The notes beneath the pieces are model-generated. The model was not told the origin of the DNA and searched no databases. It saw only the letters and a list, made by a program, of their open reading frames with translations. Both the position numbers and the translations under genes were made by a program. A DNA stretch of 51,961 nucleotides from an uncultured Thermoleophilia bacterium (GTDB taxonomy: Bacteria > Actinomycetota > Thermoleophilia > Miltoncostaeales > Miltoncostaeaceae). This document shows, in pieces, positions 11,749-46,924 of this stretch. Position 1 is the first letter of the stretch. Every line of letters starts with the position of its first letter. The stretch spans positions 1 to 51,961 of the forward strand of contig CALIKX010000017.1 in NCBI GenBank assembly GCA_938017905.1, written 5' to 3'.

Positions 11749-12969
11749 TCAGGTGCGGATCGTGCGGATATCGCGATCGATCTCCGGCACCGGGTGCGTG
11801 ACCGACCACGCCCCCCATGCCAGCAGGCACATCGAGGCGATTCCCAGGCTCCAGCCGATGCCGAGCACCCCCGCTACGGCGCCGAATGCCACCGATCCGA
11901 CGGCGATCGGCGTGATCACCGACAGCTGGTAGAAGCCCAGCATGCGCCCCAGCATCTGCGAGGGCGACGACAGCTGTATCGCGGTGTTGGTGAGGGTGAG
12001 GATCCAGATCCAGAACGAGCCCGCCACCAGCATTCCGGGCACGCTCACCCACAGCACCGGCGAGGCCGCCACCACGCCGAGGGCCGCACCGAACCCCAGG
12101 GTGCCGATGGGGATGGCCAGGTGGCGCGGCAACCCGCGTCCGGAGAGCACCTGCAGCGCCCACGCGCCCGCAAGGGCACCGGCGCCCATCGCGCCCAGCA
12201 GCAGCCCCAGGGCCACCGGCCCCCCGCCCACCCGGCGCGCCACAACCGGCGCGAGTTCCTGGATGGGACCGGCGAACACCATGAACACGAACATGCCCAC
12301 CAGAAGGCGCCGCGCCGCGGCGTCACCCGCCGCGTAGGTCAGCGCCGTCCGGAGCCGCTCCGGCACCTTGCTGCCCTGCTGCACGTGCGGGGCCGCGATC
12401 AGCGCCACCACCAGCGCGAGGAACGAGCAGGCGTTCAGCAGGAAGCACCACGTGGCGCCCGCGAACGCCAGGGTCACCCCGCCCAGCAGGGGTCCGATGG
12501 CGCGGGCCACGTTGATGCCCGCCGCATTCAGCGCCACGGCCTCCTGCAGACGGGCGGTGGGCACGAGCGCCGGCACGAGGGCCAGCACCGAGGGCAGCCC
12601 GATGGCGAACGCCGCCCCCATCACCGTGGTGGCCACGAATATCGCGCCCACCGACAGGTGGCCCGTCGCGGCCAGGACCCCCAGCGCCACCGCCCCCAGG
12701 GCCTCGACCGAGAACGTGGTGATACCCACCCGGCGCCAGTCGTGGCGGTCGGCGATCTTGCCGCCCCACGCCGACAGCACGAACGCGGGCGCACGGTAGG
12801 CCAGCGCCAGCAGGCCCACCATGGTCGCGCTGCCGGTGATCTGCAGCACCAGCCATCCCGCGGCCACGGCCTGGAACCACGTGCCACCGTTCGATAGCAC
12901 GCTGCCGGCCCACACGTTGCGGAAGGCCGGGACGCGCAGCACGGCGGGTATTCCGAGGGCTCCGGCCAC
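11749..12969 (-). CDS. MFS transporter, EntS/MFS_3-like
   Basis: The 406-residue integral membrane protein has about 12 hydrophobic helices and starts at GTG 12969. It shows FRNVWAGSVLSNGGTWFQAVAAGWLV in the first helix pair and the loop GGKIADRHDWRR (an MFS motif A variant, G-x-x-x-D-R) after helix 2. A central cytoplasmic loop around residue 200 separates the two halves. It resembles the MFS_3 group that includes the enterobactin exporter EntS, whose members export siderophores or drugs. The substrate is unknown. An unusual structured inverted repeat lies directly upstream and could be its 5' leader. Confidence 0.85.
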   Translation of the reverse strand: MAGALGIPAVLRVPAFRNVWAGSVLSNGGTWFQAVAAGWLVLQITGSATMVGLLALAYRAPAFVLSAWGGKIADRHDWRRVGITTFSVEALGAVALGVLAATGHLSVGAIFVATTVMGAAFAIGLPSVLALVPALVPTARLQEAVALNAAGINVARAIGPLLGGVTLAFAGATWCFLLNACSFLALVVALIAAPHVQQGSKVPERLRTALTYAAGDAAARRLLVGMFVFMVFAGPIQELAPVVARRVGGGPVALGLLLGAMGAGALAGAWALQVLSGRGLPRHLAIPIGTLGFGAALGVVAASPVLWVSVPGMLVAGSFWIWILTLTNTAIQLSSPSQMLGRMLGFYQLSVITPIAVGSVAFGAVAGVLGIGWSLGIASMCLLAWGAWSVTHPVPEIDRDIRTIRT

Positions 12970-12992: not shown

Positions 12993-13119
12993 GCACCCGG
13001 CGGGCGGAGCGCGTGATGGGCTCGGGAAAAGGCGCGACCGCCGCATCGCGACGGTTCCCGTCGCGGGCGGAGTGCTGCGGTATTCCCTCCGCCCATCGCG
13101 CGCTCCGCCCGCCGGGTGC
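12993..13119 (-). repeat. Structured 28-bp inverted repeat with nested hairpin, upstream of the MFS gene
   Basis: The arms 12993-13020 and 13092-13119 are reverse complements with 27 of 28 matches. The 71-base interior holds a perfect 8-bp hairpin with a 3-base loop (13047-13065) and a possible second short stem. Read on the minus strand it would fold into a long basal stem ending 23 bases before the MFS start codon. Possible explanations are a structured leader RNA, a miniature inverted-repeat element or an unusual terminator. The whole gene-free stretch 12970-13224 is taken up by this and the hairpin at 13153. Confidence 0.7.
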
Positions 13120-13224: not shown

Positions 13225-18532
<5,308 letters not shown>

Positions 18533-41760: not shown

Positions 41761-42732
41761 TCACCCCGCTCGCGGAACCAGCGCCGCGGGCGCCACGGGG
41801 CCCCCGGCATACCCTGCGCTGTCGGCTGCCCGCACCATCCGCTCCATGGCGCCGGGCGCGACCGCCGTGGACGCGTGGGTGCCGTCCAGCGCCCTGAGCA
41901 GCACCTCCCTATCCAATCGCGTTCCGGTCGACTCATCCAGCAGGTCGTTGAACCGCAGCGCCACCGCGCGCGGAGCGGCATCGGCTCGCGCCACCGCCCG
42001 GGCGCTCGCGCGCACCAGTGCACGCGTGGCCGCCGGGTTCGCCCGCGCGAACTCCTCGGTGGCCACCAGGACGGTCGCCGGGATCTCCCACGCCGCGATG
42101 GTCCGGTCCATGGCGGGCACCGGCGCGGCCAGGCCGCGCGCCGCGAGCAGTTCACCGAAGGGCGCGGGCGCGAGCGCGGCATCCACCACCCCTTGGCGGA
42201 AGGCCTCCACCAGCGCCGCGTTCTTCACCGGCACCACCTCCACGTCGCCACCCTGATCCGACGCCCGCAGCCCTGCGCGGTCGAGCAGCAGCCGCAGGGT
42301 CAGGTCCTGCGTGTTGCCGTGCGCGGGCACCGCCACGCGCCGCCCGGCGAGGTCGCCGGCATCCCGGATGCCCGTGCCCGGCCGGGCAACGAACGCCTGC
42401 CCGCCGGTCACGACGCCCGCGAGCAGGCGCAGGCGGCCAGGGGCCCTGCCCTCCGCGAGCACGTAGGGACCGGGGCCGATGTACGCGGCATCGAGCGATC
42501 CGCTGAGCAGCGCGCTCACCTCCTCGGGCCCGCTGGCAAACACCTGCGCGTCCACGGGCCGCCCGGCGAGACCCGGGTCGAACTCATCCTCCAGCGCGAT
42601 CAGGGCCGGGCCGTGGGTGATGGCGGGCATCAGCCCCACGCGCACCGCGTCGGGCGCGTCGCCGCCGCATCCGGCAACCGCGACGGCGAGCACCGCGGCG
42701 GCGGCCATGGCGGCGATGGACCTAGCGCGCAC
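41761..42732 (-). CDS. ABC transporter substrate-binding lipoprotein (NitT/TauT/SsuA-like)
   Basis: The 323-residue secreted lipoprotein has signal peptide and lipobox LAVAVAGC (acylated Cys), then a periplasmic-binding-protein fold of the NMT1/SsuA type. It shows VRVGLMPAITHGPALIAL, SALLSGSLDAAYIGPGPYVL, AGDLAGRRVAVPAHGNTQDL and ATEEFARANPAATRALVRAS. The ligand is perhaps sulfonate, nitrate, taurine or a thiamin precursor. It starts at GTG 42732 inside the end of the permease gene. It is the last of the three-gene importer operon. Confidence 0.92.
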   Translation of the reverse strand: MRARSIAAMAAAAVLAVAVAGCGGDAPDAVRVGLMPAITHGPALIALEDEFDPGLAGRPVDAQVFASGPEEVSALLSGSLDAAYIGPGPYVLAEGRAPGRLRLLAGVVTGGQAFVARPGTGIRDAGDLAGRRVAVPAHGNTQDLTLRLLLDRAGLRASDQGGDVEVVPVKNAALVEAFRQGVVDAALAPAPFGELLAARGLAAPVPAMDRTIAAWEIPATVLVATEEFARANPAATRALVRASARAVARADAAPRAVALRFNDLLDESTGTRLDREVLLRALDGTHASTAVAPGAMERMVRAADSAGYAGGPVAPAALVPRAG

Positions 42733-43561
42733 CCACCAGGCCCCACCGCCGGTTGACCCAGCGCTCGAGGCGAGCGAACACCAACTGCTCGGTGGCGATG
42801 CCCACCACGAGGATCACGAGGATCACCGCCATCACCACGTCGATGGCCCCGATCTCGCGGCCCAGCTCCAGCACGCCACCCAGGCCCGCCGCCCCGGTCA
42901 CCACGATCTCGGCCGCCATCAGCGCCCGCCAGGCGAACGACCACCCCATCTTCAGGCCCGTCACCAGGCTGGGGACGATGGCCGGGAACACCAGGGTGCG
43001 CTGCAGGAACAGTCCGCGCGCGCCCAGCGCACGCCCCGCCATCAGCAGCGTGGGTGATATCTGGTGCATCGCGCCGTAGGTGGCGAGCGCCATGGGCTTG
43101 AACGTGCCGAAGGCCGTGATGGCCAGCACGGCGGTCCCGTTGAACCCGAACCAGAGGATGGCGAGCGGGAGGAAGGCGATGGTCGGGACGGCCTGCAGGC
43201 CGGCGATCACAGGGCGGATGCCGTCCTCCAGCACGCGCGACCCGCCTGTGAGGATGCCCAGCAGCACCCCGGCGACGACGCCGATCGCCCATCCCTCCAC
43301 CAGCCGGAGGAGCGTGGCCCCCAGATCCACCAGCAGCGCGCGCTCGGTGAGCAGCGTGCCAAGGGTGCCGAGCACATCACCGGGGGAGGGCAGCTTGTAG
43401 GGGTCCACCCACCCGGCGGCGGTGACAAGCCACCACACGAGCATGATGAGCAGCACGAACCAACTGCGGCGGAGGAACCCGATCGCTGCTGCCCGGGCCC
43501 CCCGCGAGGCCCGGGCCGTGCGGCCGCCCGCGGCGCCCGCACCCCCGGCGGCGGTGCTCAC
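42722..43561 (-). CDS. ABC transporter permease (SsuC/TauC-like)
   Basis: The 279-residue BPD_transp_1 permease has about six membrane helices. The EAA loop region is seen as ALGARGLFLQRTLVFPAIVPSLVTGLKMGWSFAWRALMAAEIV. The N-terminus is Ala/Gly-rich and basic. It starts at GTG 43561, with a 4-base overlap after the ATPase gene. It is specific to the nitrate/sulfonate/taurine group by order and sequence. Confidence 0.93.
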   Translation of the reverse strand: MSTAAGGAGAAGGRTARASRGARAAAIGFLRRSWFVLLIMLVWWLVTAAGWVDPYKLPSPGDVLGTLGTLLTERALLVDLGATLLRLVEGWAIGVVAGVLLGILTGGSRVLEDGIRPVIAGLQAVPTIAFLPLAILWFGFNGTAVLAITAFGTFKPMALATYGAMHQISPTLLMAGRALGARGLFLQRTLVFPAIVPSLVTGLKMGWSFAWRALMAAEIVVTGAAGLGGVLELGREIGAIDVVMAVILVILVVGIATEQLVFARLERWVNRRWGLVGAR

Positions 43562-44412
43562 AGGGCGACGACCTCGGCCACCTGAGCGCGCTGCTCGACG
43601 GCGTCGTCCACCTCGGCGCGCAAGCGCTCGAGCATGTCATGGCGCAGGTCGAGCAGTGCGGGGTCCGCCTCGTCCCGCGGGCGCGGGATGTCGATGTCGT
43701 AGGTCCGGACGATCCGCCCGGGCCCGGACGAGAGCAGGTGCACCGTGTCCGACAGGAAAGCGGCCTCGATGAGGTTGTGGGTCACGAACACCACGGTGGG
43801 CCGCGTCTCCAGCCAGATGCGCTGCAGCTCGTCCGACAGGATCGTGCGCGTCTGGGCATCCAGGGCGCTGAAGGGCTCATCCATCAGCAGGATCTCCGGG
43901 CGCATCACCAGCGCACGCGCGATGGATGCGCGCTGGCGCATGCCGCCTGAGAGCTCATGGGGCCGACGGTCCACCACGTGGTCCAAGTGCACCAGCCGCA
44001 CCGCCTCGAGGGCGCGCTCGCGCCGCTCCGCACGGCCCACGCCATGCGCACGCAGCCCGTACTCCACGTTGCCCAGCACGGTGAGCCACGGGAACAGCGC
44101 GGCGTCCTGGAACACCATGGCGCGCCCCTCCCCCGGCCCCGCGACCGGACGGCCCAGCGCCTCCACGCTCCCGGCATCCGGGCGGAGCAGCCCGGCGATC
44201 ATGCCCAGCAGGGTGGACTTGCCGCACCCGCTCGGGCCCACGAGGCTCACGAACTCGCCGCGCTCCACGGTGAACGAGGTGGTCAGGAGCGCCGGGCGGT
44301 CGCTGCCCTCGTAGGTCTTGCACGCCCCGTCCACCCGGATGGCGGGCGCGTCCGGGTCGTGGCCCCCACTGCGTGATCCGGCTCGTTCGCGCATCGCGCG
44401 GAATCTAAGCAT
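43558..44412 (-). CDS. ABC transporter ATP-binding protein (SsuB/TauB-like)
   Basis: The 284-residue ATPase has Walker A GPSGCGKST, a Q-loop FQDAALFPWLTVLGNV, signature LSGGMRQRASIARAL, Walker B ILLMDEPFSALD and H-loop FVTHNLIEAAFL. It energises the importer encoded by the next two genes. ATG 44412 is in frame with ATG 44394; neither has an obvious Shine-Dalgarno, so the start is open. The AT-rich control region at 44412-44460 lies directly upstream. Confidence 0.94.
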   Translation of the reverse strand: MLRFRAMRERAGSRSGGHDPDAPAIRVDGACKTYEGSDRPALLTTSFTVERGEFVSLVGPSGCGKSTLLGMIAGLLRPDAGSVEALGRPVAGPGEGRAMVFQDAALFPWLTVLGNVEYGLRAHGVGRAERRERALEAVRLVHLDHVVDRRPHELSGGMRQRASIARALVMRPEILLMDEPFSALDAQTRTILSDELQRIWLETRPTVVFVTHNLIEAAFLSDTVHLLSSGPGRIVRTYDIDIPRPRDEADPALLDLRHDMLERLRAEVDDAVEQRAQVAEVVAL

Positions 44413-44460
44413 TACTTATGAGAGGAATCAAAGATTCTTTTATTTGTGTTTCCCCCAACA
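44413..44460 (-). promoter_or_regulatory. AT-rich control region of the ABC importer with GAATC dyad
   Basis: About 48 bases here are markedly AT-rich in an otherwise very GC-rich window. They contain a perfect 13-bp dyad, GAATC-AAA-GATTC (44425-44437), and a further GAATC at 44401-44405. A -35-like TTGATT on the minus strand overlaps the dyad. The arrangement is that of an operator over a promoter. No regulator is encoded next to it, though a two-component pair lies just upstream. Confidence 0.5.
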
Positions 44461-44513
44461 CGCCGATCCGACGATGAGGTTCCCGCGCGGAGTGGCCGCA
44501 CCGTGCCGGGACG

Positions 44514-44724
44514 CCGGTGGGTTCGGTGTTACCTCCGGCGAAAAAGCGCGAGAGGCGGATGGCGCCGGTGTATCGGTTGGCGACTACCGCAGGCGGGCCA
44601 CCCGCGTGAGCGCACGGGCGGAGTCCGTTCGCACGCGGCGGCGTCGGCGAGTTGTCGCTAACCGATACACCGGGTCCAGCCGGACTGCTGTGATTATCGC
44701 CAGGGGTAACACCAAACCCACCGG
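44514..44724. repeat. 211-bp symmetric nested palindrome (MITE-like or structured RNA)
   Basis: The outer arms 44514-44533 and 44705-44724 match 19 of 20 as inverted repeats. The inner arms 44565-44584 and 44654-44673 also match 19 of 20. Inner and outer arms are separated by 31 bases on both sides, so the element is symmetrical about 44619, and the segments between arms are partly complementary too. All four arms begin or end with CCGGTG/CACCGG. It lies between the response-regulator stop (44748) and the ABC promoter, and fills the rest of this gene-free gap. No open reading frame is convincing. Confidence 0.8.
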
Positions 44725-44747
44725 CTGCGCGCCACGGCGCACGGCCG

Positions 44748-45419
44748 CTACTCGGGCGGAAGCTCCAGGCGGCGCTCTCCAGCCCAGGCGGCGGCTTGCG
44801 ACCGGCGCTGGAAGCCCAGCTTGCGGAGGAGCTGCGACACGTGGTTGCGGACGGTCTTCTCGGAGAGGTGGAGCACCTCGCCGATGGCACGGTTGGTGTA
44901 GCCCTCGGCGATCAGCGCGAGCATCCGGCGCTCGCGGTCGGTGAGCCCGGCCAACTCGGCCTCGGCCTGCTTGGCCGAGAGCTCGCGGAACTGGCTGAGC
45001 AGCGCACCGGTGGCGCGGGGGTCGAGCGTGGACGCACCCGATGCGGCGTCGCGGATGGCCTGGGTGAGGCGCTCGGCGTCGGCCTGCTTCAGCAGGTAGC
45101 CGGACGCCCCGGCCATGACCGCGCCGACGATGGCCTCCTCATCGGAGTACGAGGTGAGCATGACCACCCGGATGTCCTCGTTCTCCTGCTTGATGCGGCG
45201 GCAGGCATCCACCCCGCTGCCGTCCGGCAGCCGGATGTCCATCAGCACCACGTCGGGCGTGAGTTGCGCGGCCATCTGCACGGACTCGGCCACCGACCCG
45301 GCCTCGCCCACCACGCGGAAGCCACCGGTGTGCGACAGAAGCGATCGCAGGCCCAGCCGCACGACGTGGTGGTCGTCGACGATGAGCACGCGGATCGGAT
45401 CGGTGGGACTGGGCGTCAT
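44748..45419 (-). CDS. NarL/LuxR-family response regulator
   Basis: The 223-residue protein has a receiver domain with the acidic pocket Asp15/Asp16, phospho-acceptor Asp61 (LMDIRLPDGSG), Thr89 and Lys111. The C-terminal LuxR helix-turn-helix is LTDRERRMLALIAEGYTNRAIGEVLHLSEKTVRNHVSQLLRKLG. It resembles the DevR/LiaR branch in overall layout. ATG 45419 overlaps the kinase stop by 4 bases. Its targets are unknown; the divergently placed features around 44413-44724 are candidates by proximity only. Confidence 0.95.
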   Translation of the reverse strand: MTPSPTDPIRVLIVDDHHVVRLGLRSLLSHTGGFRVVGEAGSVAESVQMAAQLTPDVVLMDIRLPDGSGVDACRRIKQENEDIRVVMLTSYSDEEAIVGAVMAGASGYLLKQADAERLTQAIRDAASGASTLDPRATGALLSQFRELSAKQAEAELAGLTDRERRMLALIAEGYTNRAIGEVLHLSEKTVRNHVSQLLRKLGFQRRSQAAAWAGERRLELPPE

Positions 45420-46885
45420 GTGCTGATCACCTCATCGGGGACCCCGGCCCGGGTAGCCGGCATCTCGGTTGCCTCGACGTCGTCGAGCGGGACGGCCAGC
45501 ACCACGCGGGTGCCGCCCGTGGGATTCGGTTCGATCACCACCCGGCCGCCGAGGCGGCGGGCGCGTTCCTCCATGTTAGGGACCCCATTGCCATGTCCCT
45601 CCGCAGAGCGGTCGGGGATCCGGTCCGGAAACCCGCGGCCGGTGTCGGCCACGAGCAGGTTGATCTCATCCGCGCGGAAGCACAGGTTCACCTCCACGGC
45701 GCACGGGCCGGCATGCCGGGCGACGTTCGCGAGGGCCTCGCGCAGCACGTGGCTCAGGTCCTGCCCGGCATCGTCGGGCAGCGGCCCGCAGGCCTCGATG
45801 CCGGAGACGCGATAGGCCACCTCGAAGCTCGGGTCGGCCGCGAAATCCGTGACGATGCGGTCGAGGTCGGATGCGATGCCGGCGGGTCCGCCATCGGGCG
45901 CCTGCAGGCCGCGGATGTACCCGCGCAGGCCGTCAATCGTCGCGTTCAGGCTGCCCACCACGCGGCGGATCTCGTCCCGTGCGTGGGGGTCGGCGGTGTC
46001 GAGCGCAATGGCCTCGAGATGCAGCCCCGAGGCGTAGATCGACTGGATGGTGCCGTCATGCAGGTCGCGCCCGAAGCGGGCGCGCTCCTCGGCCACCAGG
46101 CGCGCGCGATCCAGGCCCTCCTCGCGCTGCGCGATCTCCACCTCGAAGATGTCGAGCAGCTTGATGAATGCCAACAGGAGAACCAGCGCCACGAGGGTGC
46201 GCACCACCTCCAGCGGGAAGCCCGTGGCGTCGAACCAGGCGGCCTCGTTCAGGAAGCCGCCCGGCGCCCACGGAGCGGGCTCCACCACGAAGCCCCCGAC
46301 CATGGCGTAGGCAAGGAATGCCCCTGCGGCCACGGCCGCGTAGGGGCCGATGCCGGACATCCCCTCGCGCGGAAGCTGCTCGCGCTGCAGCCACATGCCG
46401 TACGCCGACAGCAGCGCACCCGGGATCACGAACACGTAGCGCGACAGCGCGGCGCTGGTGGACTCCCACTCGAGCACCCCCCACTGCTCCTGCGCGGCCA
46501 CCATGGTGGAGATGACGATGATGGCGGCCCATGCCGCCACCGACGCGACGGTCAGCGCCGCCAGATGCCGCCGCGCCCATGGGACCAGCCGCAGCCCGAA
46601 CTGGAGCAGGAACACGACCGCGACGGTCTGCAGCACGGCGCGGATCACGACCAGTGCCTCGATCACCTCGGGCGCGAGGTACGTCGCCTGGATGGGAATG
46701 AACACATAGCCCCACACCACGAGTGCGGAGAGGAAGGCGAACGACGCCAACCAGATCAGCGACGACGTCAGCGCCAAGCGGGTCGCACGCCGTCGCTGCA
46801 GCCACAGGGCGAAGCCGAGCGCGAACAACACCACCCCGTGCACGAACACGAGGAGCGAGTCGTTCTGCTGGAAGAAGGTGCCCAT
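45416..46885 (-). CDS. Membrane histidine kinase, HisKA_3 (NarL-partner) type
   Basis: The 489-residue kinase starts at ATG 46885 (GTG 46888 also possible). Seven hydrophobic helices form the N-terminal sensor (residues about 10-255), with no large extracellular domain, so it may sense a membrane or internal signal. The dimerisation box ARFGRDLHDGTIQSIYASGLHLEAI carries the phospho-acceptor His276. The ATPase domain has HVLREALANVARHA (N box), VADTGRGFPD (G1) and GHGNGVPNMEERARRLGG (G2). It pairs with the response regulator just downstream. Confidence 0.94.
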   Translation of the reverse strand: MGTFFQQNDSLLVFVHGVVLFALGFALWLQRRRATRLALTSSLIWLASFAFLSALVVWGYVFIPIQATYLAPEVIEALVVIRAVLQTVAVVFLLQFGLRLVPWARRHLAALTVASVAAWAAIIVISTMVAAQEQWGVLEWESTSAALSRYVFVIPGALLSAYGMWLQREQLPREGMSGIGPYAAVAAGAFLAYAMVGGFVVEPAPWAPGGFLNEAAWFDATGFPLEVVRTLVALVLLLAFIKLLDIFEVEIAQREEGLDRARLVAEERARFGRDLHDGTIQSIYASGLHLEAIALDTADPHARDEIRRVVGSLNATIDGLRGYIRGLQAPDGGPAGIASDLDRIVTDFAADPSFEVAYRVSGIEACGPLPDDAGQDLSHVLREALANVARHAGPCAVEVNLCFRADEINLLVADTGRGFPDRIPDRSAEGHGNGVPNMEERARRLGGRVVIEPNPTGGTRVVLAVPLDDVEATEMPATRAGVPDEVIST

Positions 46886-46924
46886 CACATGACCGCCCGC
46901 GCCGTGCTGGTCACTCTAGCCCGG

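Follow-up and report, generated by a model that had tools for sequence, protein, structure and literature searches.

A dispersed hairpin repeat family of one Miltoncostaeales genus, whose locus-specific arms and flipped centres suggest template switching

ERIC/IRU sequences, which are counted among the prokaryotic MITEs (PMC10969869), share with the hairpin family described here a size of about 115–210 bp, an imperfectly palindromic, intergenic and non-coding nature, a modest copy number and a genus- to family-wide distribution. Compared by description, our family differs in its unrelated host group, its conserved inside, its locus-specific arms and its inversion in place. MITEs are likewise small, non-autonomous and palindromic, with presence/absence polymorphism at orthologous sites, whereas we found no conserved terminal repeats, target-site duplication or related transposase for the hairpin family. 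REP and REPIN sequences mobilized by RAYTs are also intergenic hairpins with conserved mismatched positions, and RAYTs are present in the genus; however, the RAYT-associated REP of this genus, CCCCGGTGTCAGGCACTTAA, is unrelated to our family, and the genome under study has no RAYT. Finally, inverted repeats are documented to undergo template switching that homogenises their arms and inverts their spacers (PMC8604942), and the same process can both generate hairpins and keep them intact (PMC8794818). Those quasi-palindromes and our family have these two effects in common, but the effects were published for short inverted repeats (PMC8604942) with much shorter spacers (2–5 bp substitutions), whereas the family reported here, if our reading is right, is a repeat family with spacers of about 150 bp at several loci across a genus.

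The window, a stretch of 51,961 nucleotides from an uncultured Thermoleophilia bacterium (contig CALIKX010000017.1 of assembly GCA_938017905.1), had been noted to contain a symmetric nested palindrome between a two-component operon and an ABC importer. Direct reading bore this out: two nested arm pairs (outer, 44514–44533/44705–44724; inner, 44565–44584/44654–44673), each complementary at 19 of 20 positions, are separated by equal gaps of 31 bp (44534–44564 and 44674–44704) around a symmetry centre at 44619, and all four arms carry CCGGTG at their outer end. Gene and domain assignment of the flanking ORFs agreed with the proposed neighbourhood, with the kinase and regulator upstream of the palindrome, the importer downstream and all genes on the minus strand; 23 bases separate position 44724 from the end of the response regulator gene at 44748. 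The features of the locus are as follows.

41761–42732, minus strand: NMT1-like substrate-binding protein.
42722–43561, minus strand: ABC importer permease.
43558–44412, minus strand: ABC importer ATPase, downstream of the palindrome and on the same strand.
About 44480–44760, no strand assigned: full quasi-palindrome, comprising locus-specific outer arms and conserved core and including the response-regulator stop codon (44748–44750).
44514–44533, plus strand: outer left arm CCGGTGGGTTCGGTGTTACC, locus-specific.
44529–44711, plus strand: core unit, matched over its full length by covariance model R1 at 172 bits (R1 was built including this copy).
44540–44558, plus strand: outer internal loop, conserved 5' side GAAAAAGCGCGAGAGGCGG.
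44565–44584, plus strand: inner left arm CCGGTGTATCGGTTGGCGAC, covarying stem.
44585–44653, plus strand: inner module, with loop motifs TACCGCAG (44585–44592) and TCGGCGAG (44644–44651).
44654–44673, plus strand: inner right arm GTCGCTAACCGATACACCGG, covarying stem.
44680–44699, plus strand: outer internal loop, conserved 3' side CCGGACTGCTGTGATTATCG (family form CCGCACTGCTGTGGTWWTCG).
44705–44724, plus strand: outer right arm GGTAACACCAAACCCACCGG, locus-specific.
44748–45419, minus strand: response regulator of the LuxR/GerE type, contributing its 3' end as the outermost right arm.
45416–46888, minus strand: histidine kinase (HisKA_3).

The palindrome is larger than first described, reaching from about 44480 to 44760 with the response-regulator stop codon inside. 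A repeat finder widened the outer arms to 44498–44544/44694–44740, score-based extension placed the limits of palindromy about 104 nt beyond the inner module in both directions, and the stretch, aligned with its reverse complement, matched at 72% over 243 bp. The RNA folds of the two strands had z = −10.7 and −9.3, with none of 200 shuffles equally stable, and the DNA fold had z = −7.1; this order is far beyond chance. Nearby, the region upstream of the importer (44360–44440 of the window; loci L106, L112 and L116) contains a conserved GATTCCTSTCATAAGNAATRCTTGTAT-like motif that includes AAG/CTT as an inverted repeat and, judging from its sequence, is a candidate for an operator or promoter.

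A search of the genome and its relatives confirmed that the palindrome is a repeat. The same genome contains at least four further near-identical copies (90–96% identity over 179–201 bp; contigs C6, C20, C7 and C75) and a partial copy on contig C38, these numbers being lower bounds; the genome search scored 22 candidates per genome. Strong matches were confined to the same genus among the 60 relatives searched, and model R1 detected the family in 17 of the 20 genus genomes, against 0 of 99 genomes outside the genus. The loop sequence GAAAAAGCGCGAGAGGCGG is restricted to the genus, save for chance single matches elsewhere, and the 16-mer GAAAAAGCGCGAGAGG occurs in nine genus genomes, including the one under study, with a single one-mismatch match in a more distant genome. 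Among public contigs, the longer motif was found mostly in MAGs labelled Miltoncostaeales or Thermoleophilia; a few other contigs were apparently mislabelled (Bifidobacterium, Acidobacteria), and two more were chance hits with no model match. Hits of 16–20-mers in viral contigs and distant genomes also had no model match and were discarded as chance, and no match to a phage or plasmid was found. The palindrome is thus a real multi-copy, genus-specific, non-coding intergenic hairpin repeat, and its family, hosted by one genus of aquatic actinobacteria (Miltoncostaeales), is previously undescribed.

Most copies adjoin the 3' ends of genes or lie between convergent genes. The original suggestion of a large binding platform for the two-component/ABC locus found no support, the same element being present at many unrelated loci, and a response-regulator platform in particular was dropped because the copies adjoin unrelated genes. 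Many family members are shorter, at about 110–125 bp, with an inner module GATCGCAGCCGGGGAT..GCATTTGCGG.CCCCGCAAATGC..GATCCCGYTTCGGCGAG within locus-specific stems; an extended subfamily, which includes the window copy, carries an extra GAAAAAG loop. The window also contains a second member.

12993–13119, plus strand: divergent family member, with GAAAAGGCGCGA (13026–13037) and TGCTGCGGTATT (13073–13084) within arms; model E values of 0.0007 and 0.0013.

This member, located between minus-strand ORFs at 11749–12969 and 13225–14211, has a 29-bp stem with 97% complementarity, and its inner module is replaced by a short apical hairpin, indicating that the modules of the family occur separately.

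Alignment of copies with their flanks delimited a shared core of about 152–159 bp, with outer arms that vary with the locus yet are complementary within each copy. Conservation lies inside, in an inner hairpin and in two asymmetric internal loops, GAAAAAGCGCGAGAGGCGG opposite CCGCACTGCTGTGG and AYCGCAG opposite TCGGCGAG, and copies of the family carry one or two such loop motifs in their centre; the 31-bp gaps correspond to the opposite strands of one such loop. The TACCGCAG/TCGGCGAG pair of the window is a divergent version of the genus-wide GATCGCAG...TTCGGCGAG. In an alignment of 14 distinct cores (A1), one long hairpin of 59 pairs accounted for 97.5% of cells, and 21 of the 59 pairs had changes on both sides, an upper estimate because indels shift some columns between two sequence clades. 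A covariance model had been proposed as a check, and covariation was indeed found: 0.357, compared with 0.142 in shuffled and at most 0.078 in slid alignments, the alignments being partly built on palindromic sequence.

This strong covariation, together with the conserved unpaired motifs, the extreme fold stability and the position mostly at gene 3' ends or between convergent genes, is what would be expected of a structured RNA or bidirectional terminator under RNA-level selection, in which compensatory mutations hold the stem and the internal loops bind a protein. Conversely, Rfam 15 gave no match at the gathering score, only sub-threshold matches, mostly of microRNA type, to hairpins, and no T-run typical of an intrinsic (rho-independent) terminator was found after the stem. 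Additionally, arm pairs over 44 copies comprised 2,506 Watson-Crick pairs, 81 G-T, 90 A-C and 264 other mismatches, in a tally that mixes transcribed strands; that G-U is not in excess over A-C suggests upkeep at the DNA level. Orientation flips at the same locus, the invasion of coding ends by the arms and double changes at folK that bypass G-U (all below) also count against RNA-level selection, which we consider rather unlikely. The earlier guess of a structured RNA keeps some probability through the strong pairing covariation, with neither an Rfam match nor the G-U excess to accompany it. Other hairpins, CGATCTTCGCC..CCGACCTATGA..GGTCGG..GGCGAAATCG, occur downstream of the response regulator (loci L102–L106 and L169/L175; genomes G015, G006, G004, G010 and G013) and have locus-specific outer stems. 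A putative second family at that position, CGATCTTCG...CGACC (G004, G006, G010 and G015), was largely local when searched with a wider pattern, and was dropped.

To compare occupied and unoccupied sites, we inspected orthologous gene pairs across the genus. The SerA/leuA site is filled in G000 (the genome under study), G005, G006 and G013, and empty in G018, G019, G004, G012 and others; the response regulator/ABC site is filled in G000 and G005 and empty in G014 and G007. Between PlsY and folE2 the element is present in nine species, with a decayed copy in the genome under study, and both core and palindrome are absent from G014, G001, G002, G017, G008 and G009. The site between folK and the next gene is filled in eight species, partially so in G000, and lacks the element in G005, which is the closest relative of G000 (93.9% identity on concatenated genes); neither the element nor a long hairpin was found at this site in outgroups.

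These comparisons bear on the idea that a mobile hairpin lands in the middle of terminator palindromes that were already there, the locus-specific arms being the old terminator. Such insertion would account for a common core with locus-specific arms, and short hairpins do exist at some empty sites (SerA/leuA in G016 and G019). However, there is no matching palindrome at the empty PlsY/folE2 sites (G001, G002, G008, G009, G014 and G017) or at empty SerA/leuA sites (e.g. G018), and this arrival of the arms together with the core argues against insertion into an existing terminator. Arms at the same locus also differ between species with their complementarity kept, and the other short-loop hairpins of the window are short, with 10–13 scored pairs, so that we judge this explanation quite unlikely. 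Two further observations concern these gaps: in G012, the PlsY-folE2 gap (L088) contains a palindrome alike in layout with an unrelated centre, TCGCGAATCGGAATCGCGAG..., and upstream of leuA (L120–L132; for instance L121, right after the SerA stop) a short ORF, MSATANTNLLAGRGTLGALLLLPR followed by a stop, is conserved in almost every species of the genus and from its sequence looks like the leucine leader peptide of an attenuator.

Left and right arms scored 17–36 against each other within a copy, at loci with pairing arms, and mostly 0–12 across unrelated loci. At the folK locus, both arms contain GGGATGAAGG in G013 and G010, and both contain GGCATCAAGG in G015, whereas in G006 the two arms differ at one position, each carrying one of the two states. 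The between-species change was made identically in both arms, as expected from arm homogenisation, and G006 is a mixed intermediate. Since these are changes from C-G to G-C, passage through G-U is impossible. The arms also extend into coding ends, namely those of PlsY (...CCCACCTGA), folK (GACGCGTAG) and the response regulator.

The orientation of the core differs between species at two loci, which is the spacer inversion expected from template switching. Between PlsY and folE2, the cores of G010, G015, G018 and G019 are opposite to those of G005, G006, G011 and G013, flipped cores including copies deep within long contigs, and at folK those of G010, G013 and G018 are opposite to those of G006 and G015. 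Considered with the species tree, this pattern requires several independent flips. The arms at PlsY/folE2 are compatible with inversion of the core only and with inversion of the whole element. A site-specific invertible element would have common recombination sites; none were present, and the arms at inverted loci differ between loci. An apparent swap of the whole element at the response regulator locus between G000 and G005, where swapped arms match better (47.5 versus 33.5), was not used as proof because the ABC-side contig of G005, C66, is apparently chimeric, its own arms being unpaired.

Because several copies sit at the ends of contigs, and because some contigs are chimeric, not all flanks can be trusted. 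In C7 and C20 of the genome under study and in C66 of G005, the two arms of the copy do not pair with each other and each pairs with an arm of another contig (the left arm of C7 with the right arm of C20, and the left arm of C66 with the right arm of the window), making these contigs likely chimeric assemblies at the repeat. In C6 and C75 of the genome under study and in C176 of G010, both sides of the copy carry flanks of the same gene in mirror image; the two flanks are not identical, which would fit co-assembly of strains or species that differ in orientation. Wrong or mirrored flanks joined at the core in these six contigs could suggest that fold-back of short-read contigs made the palindrome or the inversions. 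That reading is already contradicted as to the presence of the element, because full elements lie deep in long contigs of different assemblies (the window; 194 kb in G018; 113 kb in G006) and the flanking genes are the same ones in several species; we give it almost no weight. Arm complementarity can itself serve to detect chimeric or fold-back joins (L065, L072, L077 and L079; L043; L064; in G000, G005 and G010).

The earlier guess of a MITE was right in that the repeat is dispersed, palindromic and non-coding, with near-identical copies and with both filled and empty orthologous sites. Conversely, conserved terminal inverted repeats are missing, the outer arms differing by locus and the inside alone being common, and so is a target-site duplication: the nonamers at 44505–44513 (GCCGGGACG) and 44725–44733 (CTGCGCGCC), proposed earlier as the places to look, differ. 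No direct repeat was seen at folK when comparing G000 with G005. An ordinary MITE, mobilized by a DDE or HUH transposase and with decayed target-site duplications, would agree with the size, palindromicity, dispersal and intergenic position of the family; yet common termini and a target-site duplication are absent, no transposase copy with matching ends was seen, and we regard it as very improbable. No larger copy was seen among the model hits. Where two hits lie 1.6–2.6 kb apart (G018, G013, G006 and G015), what they flank is the folP-folB-folK operon, with no transposon, and a transposon with hairpin ends was accordingly rejected.

The transposase search across the genus covered Y1 (RAYT) enzymes. 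None was found in G000 or in five other carriers of the family (G005, G006, G013, G015 and G019), and Y1/RAYT genes are present in 11 of the 20 genus genomes (L135–L144) with REPs of the CCCCGGTGTCAGGCACTTAA type alongside. Mobilization by RAYTs was rejected because these REPs are unrelated to the hairpins and Y1 is absent from the genome under study. A REPIN-like sequence of the same REP type is located downstream of the response regulator in G007 (L116). Neither the genus-wide Y1 search nor the inspection of paired copies revealed a mobiliser. The element works in an ERIC/MITE-like manner yet fails two defining tests of a MITE, those of common termini and target-site duplication.

Together, the locus-specific near-perfect arms, their outward growth and the flipping make template switching the most economical account. 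We favour, with a probability of roughly 55%, a genus-restricted family of dispersed DNA hairpins whose arms are homogenised and whose centres are flipped by template switching, and which spreads non-autonomously; the mirroring of arms and flipping of centres probably record repeated switches during DNA copying. During replication, the polymerase would switch templates so that one arm is copied from the other, and the long quasi-palindrome would thereby be maintained at the DNA level. Such homogenisation would yield near-perfect, locus-specific arms and let them grow outward into a neighbouring stop codon, an intermolecular switch would invert the spacer, and the unit would spread as a non-autonomous element. 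In transcripts, the element would fold into a very strong hairpin at the end of the mRNA; this may be tolerated, or may serve the cell as a 3' barrier or as a terminator lacking a U-tract.

Template switching leaves the arrival of the core at new loci and the conservation of its loops unexplained. The conserved unpaired motifs imply recognition by some factor, for which pure template switching does not account, and loop conservation together with spread to new loci points to a putative recognising protein or RNA. A bolder proposal, to which we assign only a slim chance, is that of a selfish palindrome that carries just a central signal, the asymmetric internal loops, and builds its arms from landing-site DNA by hairpin-primed template switching; such an element would need neither fixed ends nor a transposase of its own to propagate and repair itself.

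Repeat families are usually known by their conserved ends; here the ends vary, so that standard repeat-finding programs break the family up or overlook it. The family is also a caution that processes acting on DNA can produce covarying pairs, a pattern commonly taken to prove a structured RNA, as argued previously (PMC8794818). If the proposed mechanism is true, the genus would constitute a natural record of template switching: its orthologous palindromes, dozens in number, would allow arm homogenisation, the outward growth of arms into coding sequence and the inversion of spacers to be dated on a tree.
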